Program-made: the position numbers and the translations under genes
Shown: positions 40,822 to 49,569 of the stretch, in pieces
Layout: the number at the start of each line of letters is the position of its first letter
How positions within the stretch are numbered: position 1 is the stretch's first letter
The notes under the pieces: generated by a model
Told to the model about the DNA's origin: nothing
Databases searched by the model: none
The model's input: the letters and a program-made list of their open reading frames with translations, nothing else
Assembly: GCA_003426165.1 (NCBI GenBank)
Contig: QUAH01000004.1
Coordinates: 69,501-133,500 of the forward strand
Origin: Candidatus Saccharicenans subterraneus
GTDB taxonomy: Bacteria; Acidobacteriota; Aminicenantia; Aminicenantales; Saccharicenantaceae
Reading direction: 5' to 3'
DNA: 64,000 bases

Positions 40822-42258
40822 ATGCCTTTAACCACCTGGCTAATAATCATTGGCGCCATAGTTGTTTTTCTGGCCATAGTGGGAGTGGTGCTGGCCACTC
40901 AATACCGGAAGGTTGGACCTAACGAGGCCCTGATCATCGCCGGCGGTCGCAAGAGAACCGTCACCCTGCCCGACGGGACGAAAAAGAAAGTTGGCTATAG
41001 ATATAAACTGGGCGGCGGTACCTTCGTCTGGCCGTTCATTGAAAAGGTCTATACCCTGCCCCTCGAAGTCATAACCATTTATATCAAAACGCCGGAAGTC
41101 CTGACCCATGGCGGCATTCCCATCCTGGCTGAAGCCGCAGCTCAGGTCAAGGTGGATTCTACCGACCTGGCCATACGCTTGGCCGCCGAGCAGTTCCTGG
41201 GAAGCGGAAAGGAAGGAATTCGTGATGTGGCCATGACCGTGCTGGAAGGCAAGGTCAGGGAAATAATCGGCACCATGACTGTCGAGGAAATCTACCGCGG
41301 TCGCCAGGAATTTTCCAGGCGGGTGGCCCAGGCCGCCAAGGAAGATTTCGCCAACATGGGCCTGGTCCTGCTGAGTTTCTCACTCAAGGACATCAGCGAC
41401 ACCCAGGGTTATATCGATGCCCTTAGCAAGCCGGTAATTGCCGCGGCCAAGCGGGATGCGGCCATTGCCCAGGCCGAAACCGAGAAAGAAGCTGTCATCA
41501 AGTCGTCTCAGGCCCGAAAAGAAGCCGAGGTGGCCAGGCTGCAGGCTGAAGCCCAGATAGCCAAGGCCCAGTGGGAGAACGAAGCCAAGAAAGCCGAGTC
41601 CCAGACCTTCGTCAACCAGAAAAAAGCCCAGGCCGATTTTTCCTACGAGCTGGAACGCACCCGGGTCAGCCAGGAAATAAAGAAAGAAGAAGCCAGGGTT
41701 AAACAGATTGAAAAGGAAGAGGCCATCAAGATAGAAGAGCTGGAAATCAAGCGCAAGGAAAAAGAACTGGAAGCCAACGTCCTTAAACCGGCTGATGCCC
41801 GCAAGTACCAGATCCAGGCCGAAGCCGAGGCCGAAGAAATCCGGCTGATGGCCGAAGGCAAGGGCAAGGCCGAAGCCATGAAACTGGAAGCCATGGTCAA
41901 GGCAGATGAGATCAGGCTGCGCGGCCTGGCCGAGGCCGAGGCCATGCTGAAGAAAGCCCAGACCTGGGAAAGGTACAACGAAGCAGCCCTGCTGGAAAGC
42001 TTCATCAAGGTGCTGCCCGAGCTGGCCCGGGCCGTGGCTGAACCGCTGGCCAGGGTGGACAAAATCGTGGTCATCGGAGGCGATAAGGGACTGGGCACCA
42101 ACCAGATTACCGGCCAGGTAACCCAGATCCTGGCCCAGATGCCGGAAGTGCTCAAGGCCCTGACCGGAGCCGACCTGGCCAGGTTCCTGAGGGATAAACT
42201 GGGTTCGGCCACCGAAGCCAGACCCGAGCCCCAGGAAAAGAAATCCGAGAAGAAATAA
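40822..42258 (+). CDS. Flotillin-like SPFH-domain membrane protein
   Basis: This is a 478-residue protein. One N-terminal membrane hairpin/span (about 5-27) is followed by the SPFH domain (about 28-200, 'GPNEALIIAGGRKRTVTLPD', 'AEQFLGSGKEGIRDVAMTV') and a long Glu/Ala/Lys coiled coil (about 205-390, 'AAKRDAAIAQAETEKEAVIK'), then a Gly-containing tail. Flotillins assemble into membrane microdomains. A strong GGAGG site precedes the ATG. The aminotransferase fusion gene follows 21 bases later, so they are probably co-transcribed, which is an unusual pairing. Confidence 0.92.
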   Translation: MPLTTWLIIIGAIVVFLAIVGVVLATQYRKVGPNEALIIAGGRKRTVTLPDGTKKKVGYRYKLGGGTFVWPFIEKVYTLPLEVITIYIKTPEVLTHGGIPILAEAAAQVKVDSTDLAIRLAAEQFLGSGKEGIRDVAMTVLEGKVREIIGTMTVEEIYRGRQEFSRRVAQAAKEDFANMGLVLLSFSLKDISDTQGYIDALSKPVIAAAKRDAAIAQAETEKEAVIKSSQARKEAEVARLQAEAQIAKAQWENEAKKAESQTFVNQKKAQADFSYELERTRVSQEIKKEEARVKQIEKEEAIKIEELEIKRKEKELEANVLKPADARKYQIQAEAEAEEIRLMAEGKGKAEAMKLEAMVKADEIRLRGLAEAEAMLKKAQTWERYNEAALLESFIKVLPELARAVAEPLARVDKIVVIGGDKGLGTNQITGQVTQILAQMPEVLKALTGADLARFLRDKLGSATEARPEPQEKKSEKK

Positions 42259-42279: not shown

Positions 42280-44604
42280 ATGGTTTCAGAAAGAGTAACC
42301 AAAATAGGAGCTTCTCCCACCTTAAAGATTTCGGCCAAGGCCAGGTCCATGAAGGCCGAGGGCATCGATGTTATTGATTTAAGCGTGGGCGAACCCGATT
42401 TCCCGACGCCGGAAAACGTCAAGGCGGCCGCGGTCAAAGCCATAGAGCAGAATTTCACCAAGTACACCGAAAACGACGGCATCCCGGAGCTGAGAAAGGC
42501 GGTCTGCAAAAGGCTCAAGGAAGATTACGGGCTGGAATACAAGCCCAACGAAGTCCTGGTCTCCAGCGGTGCCAAGAGCTCCCTTTACCACCTGGTTCAG
42601 GCCATCGTCAACGAAGGCGACGAGGTCATCATCCCGGCTCCCTACTGGGTAACCTATCCCGAGTGCGTGAACCTGGCCAAGGGTAAGCCGGTTATAGTTG
42701 AAACGCGGGAGGAGGACGGTTTCTTGCTCACTCCCGAGCAGCTAAAGGCCGCAATCTCCCCGTCGACCCGGGCCCTGGTGTTGAACAATCCCAGCAACCC
42801 GACCGGGGCCACTTACACCCGGGAGCAGCTGCTGGCCCTGGCCGAGGTCCTCCGCAAGGAAGACATTTACATCATTGCCGACGAGATCTACAGCCGCCTG
42901 GTTTACGACGGGTTTCAGTTTGTGAGCTTTGCCTCCCTGGGTGAAGACCTGAAGAAGAAGACCATCATTGTCAACGGCGTTTCCAAGAGCTATTCCATGA
43001 CCGGCTGGAGAATAGGCTATGCGGCCGGGCCGGCCGAGGTCATCAGCGCCATGAGCAAGATCCAGAGCCACACCACTTCCAACGCCTGCTCTATATCGCA
43101 GAAGGCCAGCGTCGAAGCCCTGGCCGGGCCGCAGTATGAAGTTAACCGCATGGCCGCCGAGTTCCAGAGAAGGCGAAACTACGTGCTGATGAGGCTGCAG
43201 CAGATTCCCGGGATTTCCTGCTTCAAGCCCCAGGGCGCTTTTTACCTGTTCCCAAACGTGAGTTCCTACTACGGCAAGGAAGCCGGAGGCATCCAGATCA
43301 GGAATTCCTACGGCCTGGCCTATTACCTGCTGCGGGAAGCCCGGGTGGCCATAGTCCCCGGTGACGCCTTCGGGGCCGACAACTACATCCGGATTTCCTA
43401 CGCCACCTCCATGGAAAACCTGGAAAAAGGAATGGACCGGATAGCCGAGGCCATGAGCCGGCTTAAGACGGCCAAAAAGGTTAAGAAAATCTATCTGCAA
43501 AATTACGTGACGAAGGTCAAAAAATCGGTTCCGGTGGAAGTGGTGGCAGAGGGCAAGCTGAGAGACGCCCTGGTGGCAGAGATGGAAGCCCACCTGGGTT
43601 ACGACAACTACTACGAGTGGAACGCCAACATCAACGGAACCATCGTCCAGCTCAGGACCAACGTCGGACATCTTTACGATTTCTGGGTGGAAAACTGGTT
43701 CCCGGGCCAGATTGAAGCCGGACTGGAACCGCACGCCGTGATTTACGCGGTGGACAACGTGCCGGGCAGAGAACCGCGGGCTTATTACCACCCGGAGACC
43801 CGGACGGGCATCCTGGTCAACACCGACAATTACGGGCCGTTGAGGAAACTGGCCCTGGGCATGGTTCTTGATTCTTCAGAGCACCTGGGCATAAACGCCG
43901 TGCGGGGCATGGCCGTCGGGCTGGACGGAAACGGTCTGATCCTGGTGGGGCAGCCCGGGACGAAAAAGACCGAGCTGTTTTTTGACCTGCTCAAGCTGCC
44001 GAAAGTCCAGGCCCAGACCAATGAAATCGTCTTCGTTCGCTTCTCGGGCAACCGGGCAGTGGCCGACGCCGTCGAGAGGAAATTTTACATCCCGACCAAT
44101 ACGGTTGAACTCCACGACAGACTGGCCAGGCTTTTTGACCACAGCAAGTGCGAAAACGTGGTTGCCAGGCGCGAGGACTGCACCGACCGCACCTGCCCGA
44201 TTCAGGACGACTGCCGGCTGGACAAGGGTGCTCCCTACTGCTTCCGGGCCTCGGGGGAAGCCCAGGCCATGCTCGACCCTAACTGGCTGGCCGGGCCGCA
44301 GGGCTACACCAGGAGAACCAGCCTCAAGAGCCTGGTGATTCTACGAAACGACCAGGTCTCGCCGGCGGTGGTGGAGCTCGGCAAGGAAGAGGCCCTCAGA
44401 ATCCTGGAAAGCGGAGAGCCTTCAGGCGCGGTCAGGTCACTGTCGGCTAAGGCTCAGCCGTTTTTCAACCCGCACCTTCTGGTTTTGAACGAGGACAAGC
44501 TCGCCATGCAGCGGATGTTTTTCAGCCGCCTGCTGGACCAGGTCAGGTGCTATCTCGTCAACAGCGGCGTGGCCGGGGCCGACCAGCTCAAACCCCTCTT
44601 ATAA
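42280..44604 (+). CDS. Fusion: aspartate aminotransferase + HprK/PEPCK-like P-loop domain
   Basis: This is a 774-residue two-part protein. Residues 1 to about 400 form a complete class I PLP aminotransferase of the AspAT-Ib type: 'SVGEPDFPTPENVK', 'YTENDGIPELR', 'NNPSNPTGATY', the PLP lysine K236 in 'GVSKSYSMTGWRIGY', and 'ISYATSMENLEKGM'. About 370 further residues follow without a stop. They contain 'AVRGMAVGLDGNGLILVGQP' running into a P-loop-like G557-T564 (GQPGTKKT, where HprK/PEPCK have G-x-S-G-x-G-K-S/T), and a cysteine cluster C624, C634, C639, C645, C654. The layout recalls HPr kinase or PEP carboxykinase. The second activity is unknown; the sixth P-loop position is Lys, not Gly. It may be co-transcribed with the flotillin gene. 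Confidence 0.85.
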   Translation: MVSERVTKIGASPTLKISAKARSMKAEGIDVIDLSVGEPDFPTPENVKAAAVKAIEQNFTKYTENDGIPELRKAVCKRLKEDYGLEYKPNEVLVSSGAKSSLYHLVQAIVNEGDEVIIPAPYWVTYPECVNLAKGKPVIVETREEDGFLLTPEQLKAAISPSTRALVLNNPSNPTGATYTREQLLALAEVLRKEDIYIIADEIYSRLVYDGFQFVSFASLGEDLKKKTIIVNGVSKSYSMTGWRIGYAAGPAEVISAMSKIQSHTTSNACSISQKASVEALAGPQYEVNRMAAEFQRRRNYVLMRLQQIPGISCFKPQGAFYLFPNVSSYYGKEAGGIQIRNSYGLAYYLLREARVAIVPGDAFGADNYIRISYATSMENLEKGMDRIAEAMSRLKTAKKVKKIYLQNYVTKVKKSVPVEVVAEGKLRDALVAEMEAHLGYDNYYEWNANINGTIVQLRTNVGHLYDFWVENWFPGQIEAGLEPHAVIYAVDNVPGREPRAYYHPETRTGILVNTDNYGPLRKLALGMVLDSSEHLGINAVRGMAVGLDGNGLILVGQPGTKKTELFFDLLKLPKVQAQTNEIVFVRFSGNRAVADAVERKFYIPTNTVELHDRLARLFDHSKCENVVARREDCTDRTCPIQDDCRLDKGAPYCFRASGEAQAMLDPNWLAGPQGYTRRTSLKSLVILRNDQVSPAVVELGKEEALRILESGEPSGAVRSLSAKAQPFFNPHLLVLNEDKLAMQRMFFSRLLDQVRCYLVNSGVAGADQLKPLL

Positions 44605-44904: not shown

Positions 44905-46095
44905 TTAATAAATGGGCCAGCGGCGCTCGACAAAGCCGTTGCGGATTGCCCGCCAGTCGCCAAGCACCTCGTCGGCAATTTTCTTTATCTTGTCCCGAAC
45001 CTTGCTGACCTCCAGGCCCCAGAGTTCGACATTCAGAGCCTGCGGTTCGGTGATGGGTTCGTTGATCTGGCTGACCATATAGACATAAACCTGGGTGGTT
45101 TCCGGCAGGGTGGCCACGATCCGGTCGGCGATCAATTGACTCATGATGCTGTAAATCTTTCCCACATGGCTGACCGGGTTCTTTCCGGCCACAGCTTCCA
45201 GACTCATCGGGCGGTAGGGGGTTATCAGACCGTTGGCCCGGTTGCCGCGGCCGACCTGACCGTCGTCGCCGGCCTCGGCGCTGGTGCCGGTTACGGTCAG
45301 ATAAACCGAATCGGCTGTATCGGCATGGTTGATGACAATTTCCACCGGCCGGGCGGTATATTGCTGGACAAATCCTTGCTTCAGATAATTGACGATGTCT
45401 CGTTTCACCGATTCATAGGTTGCCCGGTCTTTAATTTCAGAAGCCACAAAAGCCGCGGCTATGGTTAGATTTATGGCTTGGCCTTTGCGAACGCCCATAA
45501 CTTTTATGTCTTCGCCGAGAGCCGGAAATTTCTCCTTTCCAGCCGGGCTGTTGAGAAATTTTTCAGTCTCCAGAACTAGCCTTTCGAGCTGACTCAGCGG
45601 GGCGTAACCGACGGCCAGGGAAGTGTCGTTGGCCATGGGCGGGACGTCGTTATCGGCAAAGATGTTGGTCAGGTCTTTGCTGCCCGACCTGATTAAAAGC
45701 TTGACCTCAAGGTGTTCTTTTTTTAGATGGGGCAGCTGCCCCATCATCCAGTCTTTCATTCGGGTTTCCAGCGCCGGTTTGTCAATCAGGTTCTTGCCCT
45801 GGATGTCCCCGGTCGCCCGGCCGACTATGTACAGCAGCGCCGGGTCAATTACCTTGCCGCCGCCAAAATCAGCCTCGGAGCTGCCGCCGACCAGAACGGC
45901 TTTATCGACGTTATGATGCAGGATGCGTCCGGTTTCCCGGCGGTATATTTCAGAAAGAGCCACAGAAAGTTCTTCCGACGCTCCGTCGCATAGAGAATCG
46001 GGATGCCCTTTCCCCTTTCGTTCGACGATTTCCACCGGCATCTCTTCGGCCAGGAAATCCCGGCCTTCGCGAACCTCAAAATAGAATTTAGACAT
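44905..46095 (-). CDS. S-adenosylmethionine synthetase, archaeal type
   Basis: This 396-residue enzyme makes S-adenosylmethionine from methionine and ATP. It belongs to the archaeal-type MAT family (PF01941) and not to bacterial MetK: it starts 'MSKFYFEVREGRDFLAEEMP' and carries 'EIVERKGKGHPDSLCDGASE' and 'NHADTADSVYLTVTGTSAE', plus the glycine/asparagine-rich 'GDDGQVGRGNRANGLITPYR'. Bacterial MetK has GHPDK and a different order. It is preceded by a SAM-I riboswitch, a bacterial control element, and has a GGAGG ribosome site. Neighbours are not methionine genes. Confidence 0.93.
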   Translation of the reverse strand: MSKFYFEVREGRDFLAEEMPVEIVERKGKGHPDSLCDGASEELSVALSEIYRRETGRILHHNVDKAVLVGGSSEADFGGGKVIDPALLYIVGRATGDIQGKNLIDKPALETRMKDWMMGQLPHLKKEHLEVKLLIRSGSKDLTNIFADNDVPPMANDTSLAVGYAPLSQLERLVLETEKFLNSPAGKEKFPALGEDIKVMGVRKGQAINLTIAAAFVASEIKDRATYESVKRDIVNYLKQGFVQQYTARPVEIVINHADTADSVYLTVTGTSAEAGDDGQVGRGNRANGLITPYRPMSLEAVAGKNPVSHVGKIYSIMSQLIADRIVATLPETTQVYVYMVSQINEPITEPQALNVELWGLEVSKVRDKIKKIADEVLGDWRAIRNGFVERRWPIY

Positions 46096-46503: not shown

Positions 46504-47886
46504 TTAGAAGACGCGCTTGACGCGGGTGCGGTAATCGAGCGGATGGCCCCTGAAAATCACCAGCCGGGCTTCCTTTCCGGCCGCGATGCTTCCGAGCCTG
46601 TCGGCGACTCCCAGCACTTCAGCCGCGTTGATCGTTATTGCCTTAAGGGCCTCTTCTTCAGGTAAGCCGCCGCGCACCGCCAAAGCGGCAATGAGCGGCA
46701 GCTCCTCCAGGTTGCCGAGTCCGTACTGAACTTCGCTCTGCAGCACGACCTTGACGCCGGCGGCCTGCAGACGGGCGGCATTGCTTATTTCCACCTTCTC
46801 TGTTTCTGTCCTTTTCGGCCCGATGCTCATCGGTCCGACAATCACCGGAATTTTCCGGCGGGCAATTTCATCCGCCAGCAGATAGCCTTCAGCGCAGCCG
46901 ACAAAAACCGCCTTCAGCCCGAACTCGTCAACCAGCCTCAGCGCGGCGCCAATATCGTCCATCCGGTAGCACTCAATAAAGGCCGGAATTTCGCGCCGAA
47001 TGACTTTGGCCAGCGCTTCCAGCTTGAGGTCCTTTTTTGGCGCCTGTATTTCCTCGGCCTTTTTCTTAGTTTTCGCGGCTTCGGCCCGCTCTTTTTCGTA
47101 TTTCGCCAGTTTATCGGCATATTCCCGGGCTTCGAGCAGCGCCTGCCTGATTACATAGACATTGCCCATCCGCGTTGATGGCAGCCTCCCCTTTTCGCCA
47201 AAGGCCTGTTTCGGCCCTTCGCCGATCGAAAACTTAATTCCGGCCGGGGACAGCATCACCATTTCGTCAACCGTGCGGCCCTGGAGGCGAACCACAGCCA
47301 TCTGACCGCCGATGACCGACCGCCGGCCCGGCGTGATCAGCGCCGCCGCAATGCCGGCTGCCCGCGCCTGGGCGATTCTCTTATCAAACGGATAAAAGCC
47401 GTCAACGACGCTTAACTGAGCGACATTCGGCTCCGAAAGCTCTTCATTCTCGCTGCGGCCGGTTTCATCCGTCAGACCGAGAGAAGAATGGGCGTCAATC
47501 AAACCCGGGAGAACCCAGCCCTCTGGTTCCTCTATGATTTCAGCTCCGTCTGGAATGGAAAGTTCTTTTCCGACGGCTTTTATCCGGCCGTTCTCGATAA
47601 GAATAACTCCGTTTTCCAGCACCGGCCCGGCCATGGTGAGAATCCGGCCGGCTTTTATCGCCAGCGGGCGGGAGGCAGCCTTCTCGGCGGGCTCGGTCTG
47701 CCCGCCGGCAGCATTGGATGCCCCGAGCGACCGGGCGCTAAAATTTGTAAGCAGAAATAGAATCAACAGACAGGCACAGCCCGCCAAAAAACCCTTAAGC
47801 GGCTTTCTCAAGTTATATGATTTAAGGCCGGAATCTGCCGTATCGCCGACGTTCACTGCGGTTTTTATTTCTTTTATAAAATCCAT
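46504..47886 (-). CDS. Membrane-anchored amidohydrolase-like protein, probably inactive
   Basis: This is a protein of about 460 residues with an N-terminal membrane segment (about 30-50, 'GFLAGCACLLILFLLTNFSA'). The composite amidohydrolase fold is recognisable ('AIKAGRILTMAGPVLENGVI', 'WVLPGLIDAH', 'EEEALKAITINAAEVLGVAD'). Metal-binding positions are lost compared with its downstream paralogue: HxH is H133-S-S135, the mid-barrel 'VHIHVG' is 'AFIECY', 'LAHAEE' is 'VGCAEG', and the 'MTDAD' region reads 'LQSEV'. It is therefore likely a pseudo-enzyme. Start at ATG 47886 is set by AGGAGG; the frame runs 37 codons further up without a ribosome site. Confidence 0.8.
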   Translation of the reverse strand: MDFIKEIKTAVNVGDTADSGLKSYNLRKPLKGFLAGCACLLILFLLTNFSARSLGASNAAGGQTEPAEKAASRPLAIKAGRILTMAGPVLENGVILIENGRIKAVGKELSIPDGAEIIEEPEGWVLPGLIDAHSSLGLTDETGRSENEELSEPNVAQLSVVDGFYPFDKRIAQARAAGIAAALITPGRRSVIGGQMAVVRLQGRTVDEMVMLSPAGIKFSIGEGPKQAFGEKGRLPSTRMGNVYVIRQALLEAREYADKLAKYEKERAEAAKTKKKAEEIQAPKKDLKLEALAKVIRREIPAFIECYRMDDIGAALRLVDEFGLKAVFVGCAEGYLLADEIARRKIPVIVGPMSIGPKRTETEKVEISNAARLQAAGVKVVLQSEVQYGLGNLEELPLIAALAVRGGLPEEEALKAITINAAEVLGVADRLGSIAAGKEARLVIFRGHPLDYRTRVKRVF

Positions 47887-48216
47887 CTTTTTCCTCCTTT
47901 TTATAAAAAACTGCTGACTGCCTGACGCTCGAGCCTCTCCCGAAAGAAGGCTATTACAATTTCTCTGTTTGTCCATTTTCTTTCTCTGTTCTCTCAATAA
48001 ATATCAACGCTTCGCCGTTTAATCCATTTAATTGGACGATTGTCGGCCGCCGGAAATATTTTCGGAAATTTTTCCTTCCCAACATATTATCTGAAATCCC
48101 CTGAAATCTATTCGGCTCACACGGGAGCTTTTCACGACTCATAAAACTCATCTTGGCGCCATTTTTTCCGCATGATTTTTTCTGATTTGAATCTCCCCAG
48201 AAAATATTTCCTCTCC
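47887..48216. other. Gap between the two amidohydrolase genes
   Basis: This is 330 bases, AT-richer than the neighbours. It holds the AGGAGG ribosome site of the downstream gene at its edge and the motif GGAAAAATTTCC next to GAAAATATTTCC (about 48057-48080), a short imperfect repeat. No convincing promoter, RNA gene or coding frame was recognised. Confidence 0.5.
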
Positions 48217-49569
48217 TCACTCCTCCGAAAGTCCCGGCGCCCTGAACACCTCCCGGCCATCGATAAAAACGCGAAGGGCCGGCTGCCTGATATCAAACAG
48301 ATCGCCGCTCCAGACAACCAGGTCGGCGTCCTTGCCCTTCTCCAGGCTGCCGAGACGCTCAGCCACTCCGGCCAGCCTGGCGGGATTTATGGTAATCGCC
48401 CGCAAAGCGGCATCCGGGTCCATCCCGTACTTTACGGCAATGGCCGCCTGGGTTCTCAGAAACGGCTGCTGAATCACATCGGCATCGGTCATAATCGACA
48501 CTTCAATCCCGCGCCGGTGGAGATAATCGGCCAGGTTGACCAGCCGGTTCTGGTCGTCATAGGTAATCATCCGCGGGCCGACGACCACTTTCACCCGGTG
48601 GCGAGCGAGCTCCTCAGCCACCTTGTAAGCTTCCTCAGCATGGGCTAACGACAGCTCCTTAAAACCGAACTCTTCAGCCAGACGCACCGCGGTCATGATA
48701 TCGTCAGCCGAACCGACATGAATATGAACCGGAATTTTTTTGTCGAGCACCAGAAGCAGGGCTTCTTTCTTGAGGTCGCGCGGGGGCGCACTGGCCGCCG
48801 GATTTTTCTTCCTCTCACGCTCATAATTTTCGAGAGCTTTTCTGTGCTCAGCCGCCTCCAGCATCGCCTGCCGCACGAGAAAAGCCGTTCCCATCTTGGT
48901 CATCGGCATCTGACCCTTCGAAGCGTAAAAGACCTTACGTCCGAGGGCCATCTTCATGCAGGCAGGGAATTTGATACACATCTCGTCGACTGTCCGTCCC
49001 CGGAGCTTAAGCACTGCCGATTGCCCGCCGATGACATTGCCAGAGCCGGGGTGGACCAGCGCCGCCGTAACTCCCTCAGCCACCGCGTGGAGGAATTGAT
49101 TTTTATCGGGCCCGACTCCTTCCGGGTGGATGGAATCAATGATGCGGAGTTGAGGCGTGACCGGGTCGGTCATCTCGTTATCTTCGGTAACCCCGCCGCT
49201 CGGGCCGAGGCCCAGGTGAGAATGCGCGTCGACCAGTCCAGGAGTGATCAGGCAGCCTGAAGCGTTAACGACCCGGGCGCCGGCTGGAATTTTAACCTCC
49301 GCCCCGATATCCAGAATCTTGCCGTCCTTGATGAGAATCGTCCCGCGTTCATAGCTCTGGCCGGCAGCAGTTAGAATTCGAGCTCCGGTGATGGCAATTA
49401 GTTCGCCGCTCTGACTTTCGGCCAGGCCGGTTACGAAAAACAACGAAATCAGCCCGACACTAAGGACAATCCTGAAACTCAAGAGTGGCCAGTTTCCTGA
49501 AGCCTTACCTCCGCCAGGAAGCCAATTAAGGAACCATAACCTGAAGAATTTTTCCCCGGATTTACTCAT
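48217..49569 (-). CDS. Secreted amidohydrolase, imidazolonepropionase-like
   Basis: This is a 450-residue metal hydrolase with an N-terminal signal/anchor (about 33-50, 'IVLSVGLISLFFVTGLA'). The metal site looks intact: H116-S-H118 in 'GLVDAHSHLGLG', His in 'KIPVHIHVGSADD', His in 'LSLAHAEEAY' and Asp in 'SIMTDADV'. The C-terminal 'RAITINPARLAGVAERLGSL' and 'GKDADLVVWSGD' are typical of the superfamily. It probably cleaves cyclic amides or dipeptides outside the cytoplasm; substrate not assignable. It lies upstream of its inactive-looking paralogue, same strand. Confidence 0.87.
   Translation of the reverse strand: MSKSGEKFFRLWFLNWLPGGGKASGNWPLLSFRIVLSVGLISLFFVTGLAESQSGELIAITGARILTAAGQSYERGTILIKDGKILDIGAEVKIPAGARVVNASGCLITPGLVDAHSHLGLGPSGGVTEDNEMTDPVTPQLRIIDSIHPEGVGPDKNQFLHAVAEGVTAALVHPGSGNVIGGQSAVLKLRGRTVDEMCIKFPACMKMALGRKVFYASKGQMPMTKMGTAFLVRQAMLEAAEHRKALENYERERKKNPAASAPPRDLKKEALLLVLDKKIPVHIHVGSADDIMTAVRLAEEFGFKELSLAHAEEAYKVAEELARHRVKVVVGPRMITYDDQNRLVNLADYLHRRGIEVSIMTDADVIQQPFLRTQAAIAVKYGMDPDAALRAITINPARLAGVAERLGSLEKGKDADLVVWSGDLFDIRQPALRVFIDGREVFRAPGLSEE

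Follow-up and report, generated by a model that had tools for sequence, protein, structure and literature searches.

A conserved fusion of an aspartate-type aminotransferase to a predicted and probably inactive PEPCK-fold domain, encoded next to a flotillin

The window analysed here is a 64,000-nucleotide stretch of contig QUAH01000004.1 of Candidatus Saccharicenans subterraneus, from an assembly of 2.9 Mb that is 93% complete. It holds an open reading frame (42280-44604, + strand) that starts with ATG, has no internal stops and encodes 774 amino acids, in which an aminotransferase is joined to a second domain (Table 1). The upstream flotillin gene (Band_7, PF01145, 1.7e-30; NF058507 FloT, 380 bits, under the cut-off of 700) stops 21 bp short of the ATG of the fusion. 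On the other side, and on the - strand, lie a SAM synthetase gene (44905-46095; PF01941, 2.8e-139), from what we take to be the archaeal-type family of this enzyme, here in a bacterial genome, and beyond it two adjacent amidohydrolase genes (46504-47997 and 48217-49569). At the amidohydrolase position, related loci have pairs of similar-sized and apparently related genes.

Table 1. Coordinates, in the window, of the fusion gene's features and of its upstream neighbour
Feature	Position	Strand	Basis or conservation
Flotillin/SPFH gene, directly upstream, probably in the same operon	40822..42258	+	Band_7; same-strand neighbour 54/54
Aminotransferase domain, aspartate type (residues 1-395)	42280..43464	+	PF00155; K236 = 42985-42987
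Probable flexible linker (residues 396-406)	43465..43497	+	Full-length model
Predicted PEPCK-fold domain, catalytically degenerate (residues ~407-774)	43498..44601	+	AF2, Foldseek, hhalign
R522 at the PEPCK Lys212 position	43843..43845	+	R 54/54 fused, K 14/14 stand-alone
R542 at the PEPCK His232 position	43903..43905	+	Fused: R 49/54, H 4, Y 1; stand-alone: H 14/14
Altered P-loop GQPGTKKT (557-564)	43948..43971	+	GK[ST] 5/54 fused, 14/14 stand-alone
N581-E582 at the kinase-2 Asp-Asp position	44020..44025	+	DD 3/54 fused, 14/14 stand-alone
Cysteine-rich insert C624, C634, C639, C645, C654	44149..44241	+	Around and after the invariant Glu-Asn; five Cys within 31 residues

Both the 774-codon frame and the fusion it encodes are genuine. 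Of 79 fused relatives with frames that do not run off a contig end, 77 have a single frame of 769-812 amino acids, which rules out a sequencing error or a merger of two genes. A preliminary description of the locus had proposed the fusion and allowed for a stop between codons 400 and 430 in related genomes; the relatives instead read through, and the proposal is borne out. Its placement of K236 (within SKSYSMTGWRIGY), of GQPGTKKT at 557-564 and of five cysteines at 624-654 also proved correct. The two exceptions to the full frame, L041 (6276-8279, 667 amino acids) and L058 (557-2719, 720 amino acids), are broken copies or assembly errors. The fused relatives were drawn from two overlapping collections, and their 78 rows, including the query, represent 68 distinct sequences.

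The scan of genome contigs for relatives used a single query and under-samples distant relatives; the best 80 of its 86 matches correspond to 79 loci with two architectures, 16 being stand-alone frames of the second domain and the rest fusions. These best 80 of 86 matches include, as the nearest relative with a name, Candidatus Saccharicenans (L002), at 99% over the C-terminal half. Two Aminicenantes-like fusions (L009 and L019; 84% and 61% identity) stand under the titles Thermoplasmatota archaeon and Clostridiales bacterium, respectively, and are probably misassigned contigs. The second domain occurs in 43 of 396 Acidobacteriota genomes, for part of which fusion was called by frame length only: 41 matches lie within frames of 769-799 amino acids and the remaining two within frames of 557 and 276 amino acids, both at contig starts. 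In an unrooted tree of the C-terminal half, which carries a long-branch warning, a single branch (support 100/100) sets the fused rows apart from the rest, a topology that may be read as compatible with a single fusion event.

Its sequence marks the first half as an aminotransferase of the aspartate type whose catalytic residues are intact. PF00155 (Aminotran_1_2) spans residues 30-388 (E = 2.4e-84; 284 bits against a curated cut-off of 19.7), the closest solved relative is aspartate aminotransferase B (6f35, 4.2e-115), and the best NCBIfam model is PRK06107, aspartate transaminase (467.6 bits, under the cut-off of 617). Y62, K99, N173, D201, Y204, K236, R244 and R371 are invariant in all 78 fused rows (68 distinct), which comprise the query and 77 relatives whose frames are complete and no shorter than 740 amino acids. 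We take K236, N173, D201, Y204, R244 and R371 to be the PLP lysine, the Asn, Asp, Tyr and Arg, and the substrate Arg. The fused protein is the best of eight PF00155 matches at E ≤ 1e-5 in the genome.

In a model of the full-length protein (pTM 0.55, mean pLDDT 88.4) residues 401-406 are the only stretch of at least three residues under pLDDT 50. Because of this low-confidence linker and the pTM value, we read the model as predicting two confident domains with no fixed arrangement in the monomer. Modelled separately from 68 sequences, the second domain reaches a pLDDT of 90.5 and a pTM of 0.89. Its best Foldseek row is 9a4u_A, a PCKA-QOX2 entry (E = 5.8e-18, TMq 0.72), and the top 50 of 138 rows at E ≤ 0.001 are PEPCK entries. 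Aligned to 13 ATP-PEPCKs with hhalign, the domain gives a probability of 98.2 and an E-value of 3.4e-14 over 250 columns; for the fused rows alone against the same 13 the E-value is 3.9e-11.

Sequence searches give local matches to HPr kinase. Pfam returns no match, Hpr_kinase_C included, for residues 391-774 (at E ≤ 10) or 396-774 of the query, and NCBIfam gives two weak matches for residues 391-774, one of them PEPCK at 0.11. Members of the family match, at E ≤ 1, Hpr_kinase_C (PF07475; 24 of 68, best 2.8e-6), TIGR00679 HPr kinase (37 of 68, best 5.8e-8), the NCBIfam PEPCK model NF006821 (19 of 68, best 5.9e-13) and PF01293 (1 of 68). HPr-kinase models are thus matched by more members than PEPCK models, with the bit scores of two members lying far under the curated cut-offs. 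A profile search against PDB sequences puts HPr kinases on top (1ko7, 4.2e-4, about 60 residues) with 1ii2, at 0.2, as the sole PEPCK, and favours HPr kinase locally. We prefer PEPCK because the predicted fold decides so: according to the model, the second half is a PEPCK fold despite the local HPr kinase matches around the P-loop. Membership of the HPr kinase family is ruled out by the lack of a Pfam match in the query and by the replacement of the P-loop GxxGxGK[ST] by GQPGTKKT. The earlier assignment to a P-loop domain of the wider HprK/PEPCK superfamily is upheld by the profile matches, Foldseek and hhalign. An anti-phage defence protein was also considered and discarded, with no PADLOC match at E ≤ 1.

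The linkage to flotillin, first noted as probable co-transcription, is that of a conserved gene pair. All 54 fused loci for which 500 bp or more of upstream sequence is available have a flotillin/SPFH gene immediately before the fusion and on its strand; so do 10 of 10 further chosen Acidobacteriota loci, some of which may be among the 54. In relatives, the fusion also lies near a gene for a divergent PEPCK_ATP homologue of about 610 residues, p610; the three tested match PF01293 at 1.7e-22 to 9.5e-27 and NF006821 at 2.8e-82 or better (277-290 bits against a cut-off of 369). Of 46 loci with 2.8 kb or more of sequence past the fusion, 24 have this gene close by: in 23 it is downstream on the same strand and in one, L038, upstream on the opposite strand; it was not seen in the other 22 of these 46 fused loci. 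Counted by label, p610 is downstream in 0 of 11 Saccharicenans-type loci, 4 of 11 other Aminicenantes, the one Fischerbacteria locus, 6 of 6 from Bacteroidota, Ignavibacteria and Calditrichota, 11 of 14 Zixibacteria, 0 of 1 TA06 and 1 of 2 unlabelled loci. In 11 of 14 testable loci labelled Zixibacteria, and in 1 of 2 that have no label, the next gene after the fusion is NDK. Seven of ten chosen Acidobacteriota stretches have p610, either divergent beyond the flotillin (L163, L164, L166 and L171), convergent (L165) or downstream (L169 and L170), and three (L167, L168 and L172) have none. Flotillin is the most constant neighbour, also where p610 is missing, which would suit a domain that acts as a structural or flotillin-binding module to localise the aminotransferase, its link to PEPCK being incidental. 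However, the linkage of p610 takes several forms (downstream, divergent, convergent or with NDK in between), which would not be expected of incidental linkage, and we consider this explanation quite unlikely.

In 55 rows from two collections, fragments included and not de-duplicated, p610 keeps Y207, K212, K213, H232, K254, D268, D269 and E297 throughout and the R65 position in 54; the R333 position is Arg in only 33 of the 55, and R in 8 and K in 5 of the 13 canonical sequences. At E ≤ 1e-180, a cut-off set post hoc from the list (at 1e-20, 50 of the 396 Acidobacteriota genomes match), 24 of the 43 Acidobacteriota genomes carrying the fused protein's second domain have p610, as do 4 of the 353 others. 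Among the 43, 17 of the 19 genomes that lack p610 have GTP-PEPCK, against 2 of the 24 that have p610 (Fisher p = 1e-7, a value that ignores relatedness and is too strong). One or other gene is found in 41 of the 43, and neither in G224 and G146. Because this complementary pattern follows clades, the independent events behind it are few; the swap suggests that p610 serves as a PEPCK. Canonical ATP-PEPCK was searched for in the window's own genome and 12 chosen genomes; in the 93%-complete assembly of the window genome, neither PEPCK_ATP nor p610 was found, and one GTP-PEPCK is encoded on another contig. The PEPCK-like neighbour of the relatives, which was not found in this genome, independently supports the idea that the extra domain couples the aminotransferase to oxaloacetate metabolism.

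L147 and the genomes G004, G020 and G232, three genomes of one family, have p610-like matches with one TGA inside the aligned stretch; the search may have run past a terminal stop, the gene may be broken, or the codon may be recoded.

The catalytic residues of the second half were compared in alignment A1. From 110 loci, L041 and four loci cut at the 3′ end were dropped to leave 105, and a filter (90% identity, 340 residues) left 76; A1 consists of the window sequence, in place of its own copy, and 67 of the other 75, with L007, L009, L013, L015, L024, L094, L096 and L102 left out. The full K/H/GK[ST]/DD set is present in 14 of 14 stand-alone rows and 0 of 54 fused rows, and 45 of the 54 have none of H542, GK[ST] and DD. 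The window reads R522, R542, GTKKT and N581-E582 at the K212, H232, P-loop and Asp-Asp positions of PEPCK (E. coli numbering), so the query has neither the Lys-Lys and His nor the GxxGTGKT/S P-loop nor the kinase-2 Asp-Asp of a PEPCK. K523, beside R522 in the query, is kept in only 4 of 54 fused rows, most of which have Ser. The hhalign alignment begins past the Arg65-bearing N-terminal segment. Counted in E. coli numbering, the part of the domain that precedes the K212 position falls about 85 residues short of its counterpart in E. coli PEPCK, and the R65 region is therefore probably missing. From these residues the fused domain is probably not active as a PEPCK or kinase, and phosphorylation by it, as had been suggested, is not supported.

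The C-terminal half is nevertheless under purifying selection, because its dN/dS is 0.042-0.073 (6 of 8 pairs with usable dS, several dS values being near saturation); the values for the aminotransferase half are lower, at 0.022-0.050. Together with E599-R600-K601, E625-N626 and N761, which are invariant in the 54 fused rows of A1 and also in the fused rows of A2, these ratios count against a plain relic. Such constraint, and the predicted PEPCK fold, might also be expected if the domain were still a working kinase or carboxykinase whose catalytic residues had been rebuilt, which would make the fusion a bifunctional aspartate-to-PEP (or phosphorylating) enzyme. We regard this as very unlikely, given the replacement of K212, H232, D268 and the P-loop Gly positions in the query, the absence of the full set from every fused row, the probably missing R65 region and the fact that 41 of the 43 domain-holding genomes of the phylum already have a p610 or GTP-PEPCK gene. 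L037, L038 and L042 are among the fused rows that keep two of H542, GK[ST] and DD, and such rows would fit a stepwise loss; as the tree is unrooted, loss rather than original absence is what we infer.

Nucleotide sensing, the other role suggested for the domain, keeps part of its ground: the usual kinase residues are lacking, and binding is still conceivable because K563 and T/S564 persist in 34 of 54 fused rows. A domain that binds ATP or ADP through the altered P-loop and tunes the aminotransferase allosterically, with no physical link to a PEPCK, would also accord with G560 in 54 of 54 fused rows, with the low-confidence linker and with the failure to find p610 in the window's own genome. 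Nucleotide binding is unlikely as a shared function, however, because residue 563 is Arg in 20 and residue 564 Gly in 16 of the 54 fused rows, and a sensor leaves the adjacency of p610 unexplained; we judge it unlikely.

The preliminary description had noted the five-cysteine cluster and raised the question of bound metal. Cysteine occupies position 624 in 51, 634 in 38, 639 in 34, 645 in 52 and 654 in 50 of the 54 fused rows. Within residues 622-656, 32 rows have five cysteines, one has six, one four, 18 three and two two. We reject a five-cysteine metal site as a shared core feature, since the count varies among fused rows and 13 of 14 stand-alone rows lack the insert.

The 16 stand-alone homologues (L063-L074 and L076-L079; frames of 358-420 amino acids) come from Deltaproteobacteria, Nitrospirae and an Acetothermia record. 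In the DNA fetched around them, 0 of 16 loci have a flotillin or p610 and 0 of 16 have an aminotransferase of the fusion's type, so this DNA gives no sign of a link between the stand-alone domain and that enzyme. Inspected by eye, nine of these loci are preceded by guaB-/guaA-like genes, and nine then have a signal-peptide-peptidase-like gene; the motif-intact L063-L068, L071, L073, L076 and L078 lie, by the same inspection, near guaB, guaA, LOG-family and signal-peptide peptidase genes. The stand-alone, motif-intact relatives are a candidate for an uncharacterised PEPCK/HprK-like kinase.

Aspartate aminotransferase and PEPCK share oxaloacetate. With middling confidence, we favour reading the locus as an aspartate/oxaloacetate/PEP module, with the PEPCK pseudoenzyme domain serving to dock or to regulate the aminotransferase. 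This reading takes in what the computations show of the locus: the fusion and its predicted fold, aminotransferase residues that are intact, PEPCK or kinase residues that are absent, purifying selection, and linkage to a flotillin and, in many loci, to a PEPCK-like gene. Weighing against it are the local matches to HPr kinase, the failure to find p610 in this genome or in 22 of 46 loci, the position of the GTP-PEPCK gene on a separate contig, the variable R333 position and low NCBIfam scores of p610, and the two Acidobacteriota genomes in which neither p610 nor GTP-PEPCK was seen. The aminotransferase would interconvert aspartate and oxaloacetate, and a competent PEPCK, either p610 nearby or, as here, a GTP-PEPCK encoded elsewhere, would interconvert oxaloacetate and PEP, with flux possible in either direction. 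The pseudo-PEPCK domain would dock the aminotransferase to this PEPCK, or regulate it by sensing nucleotide or oxaloacetate, and the flotillin would assemble the module at the membrane; contact among fusion, PEPCK and flotillin is what this docking mechanism would entail. More tentatively, and with considerable doubt, we envisage a cross-phylum, flotillin-anchored aspartate-oxaloacetate-PEP metabolon in which the fused pseudoenzyme recruits or gates a true PEPCK at the membrane. If this is so, a metabolic pseudoenzyme of the PEPCK family would be joined to the enzyme that supplies PEPCK with its substrate, and bacterial flotillins would gain a concrete client in central carbon metabolism across uncultured phyla. 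In p610 there is, in addition, a divergent PEPCK-like family that may replace GTP-PEPCK in some Acidobacteriota.

The domains and their superfamily are known; the titles and abstract beginnings searched, in literature outside subscription journals and preprints, contain no description of the fusion or the gene pair, and the degeneracy and the conserved gene set were likewise not met there. The second half resembles ATP-PEPCK (PF01293; 1oen, 1j3b, 9a4u) in predicted fold, in motif order, in a Glu-Asn-Val past the core and in a C-terminal Asn region, but the query domain has no Pfam match, its catalytic Lys, His and Asp are replaced, its N-terminal part is shorter and it is fused to an aminotransferase. 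The likeness to HPr kinase/phosphorylase (PF07475, TIGR00679) is local, around the P-loop: the PDB match covers only about 60 residues, the query itself is unmatched and does not have GxxGxGK[ST], and the profile-profile comparison covers the PEPCK side only. The stand-alone homologues are homologous over most of the domain, at 33-38% identity, and, unlike the fused domain, keep the canonical nucleotide and metal motifs. With class I/II aspartate aminotransferases (PF00155; 6f35) the fusion shares the whole first domain, the PLP lysine and the substrate-binding residues; it falls short of the cut-offs of its best NCBIfam equivalogs, and it adds a C-terminal domain of about 370 residues that is foreign to that family.
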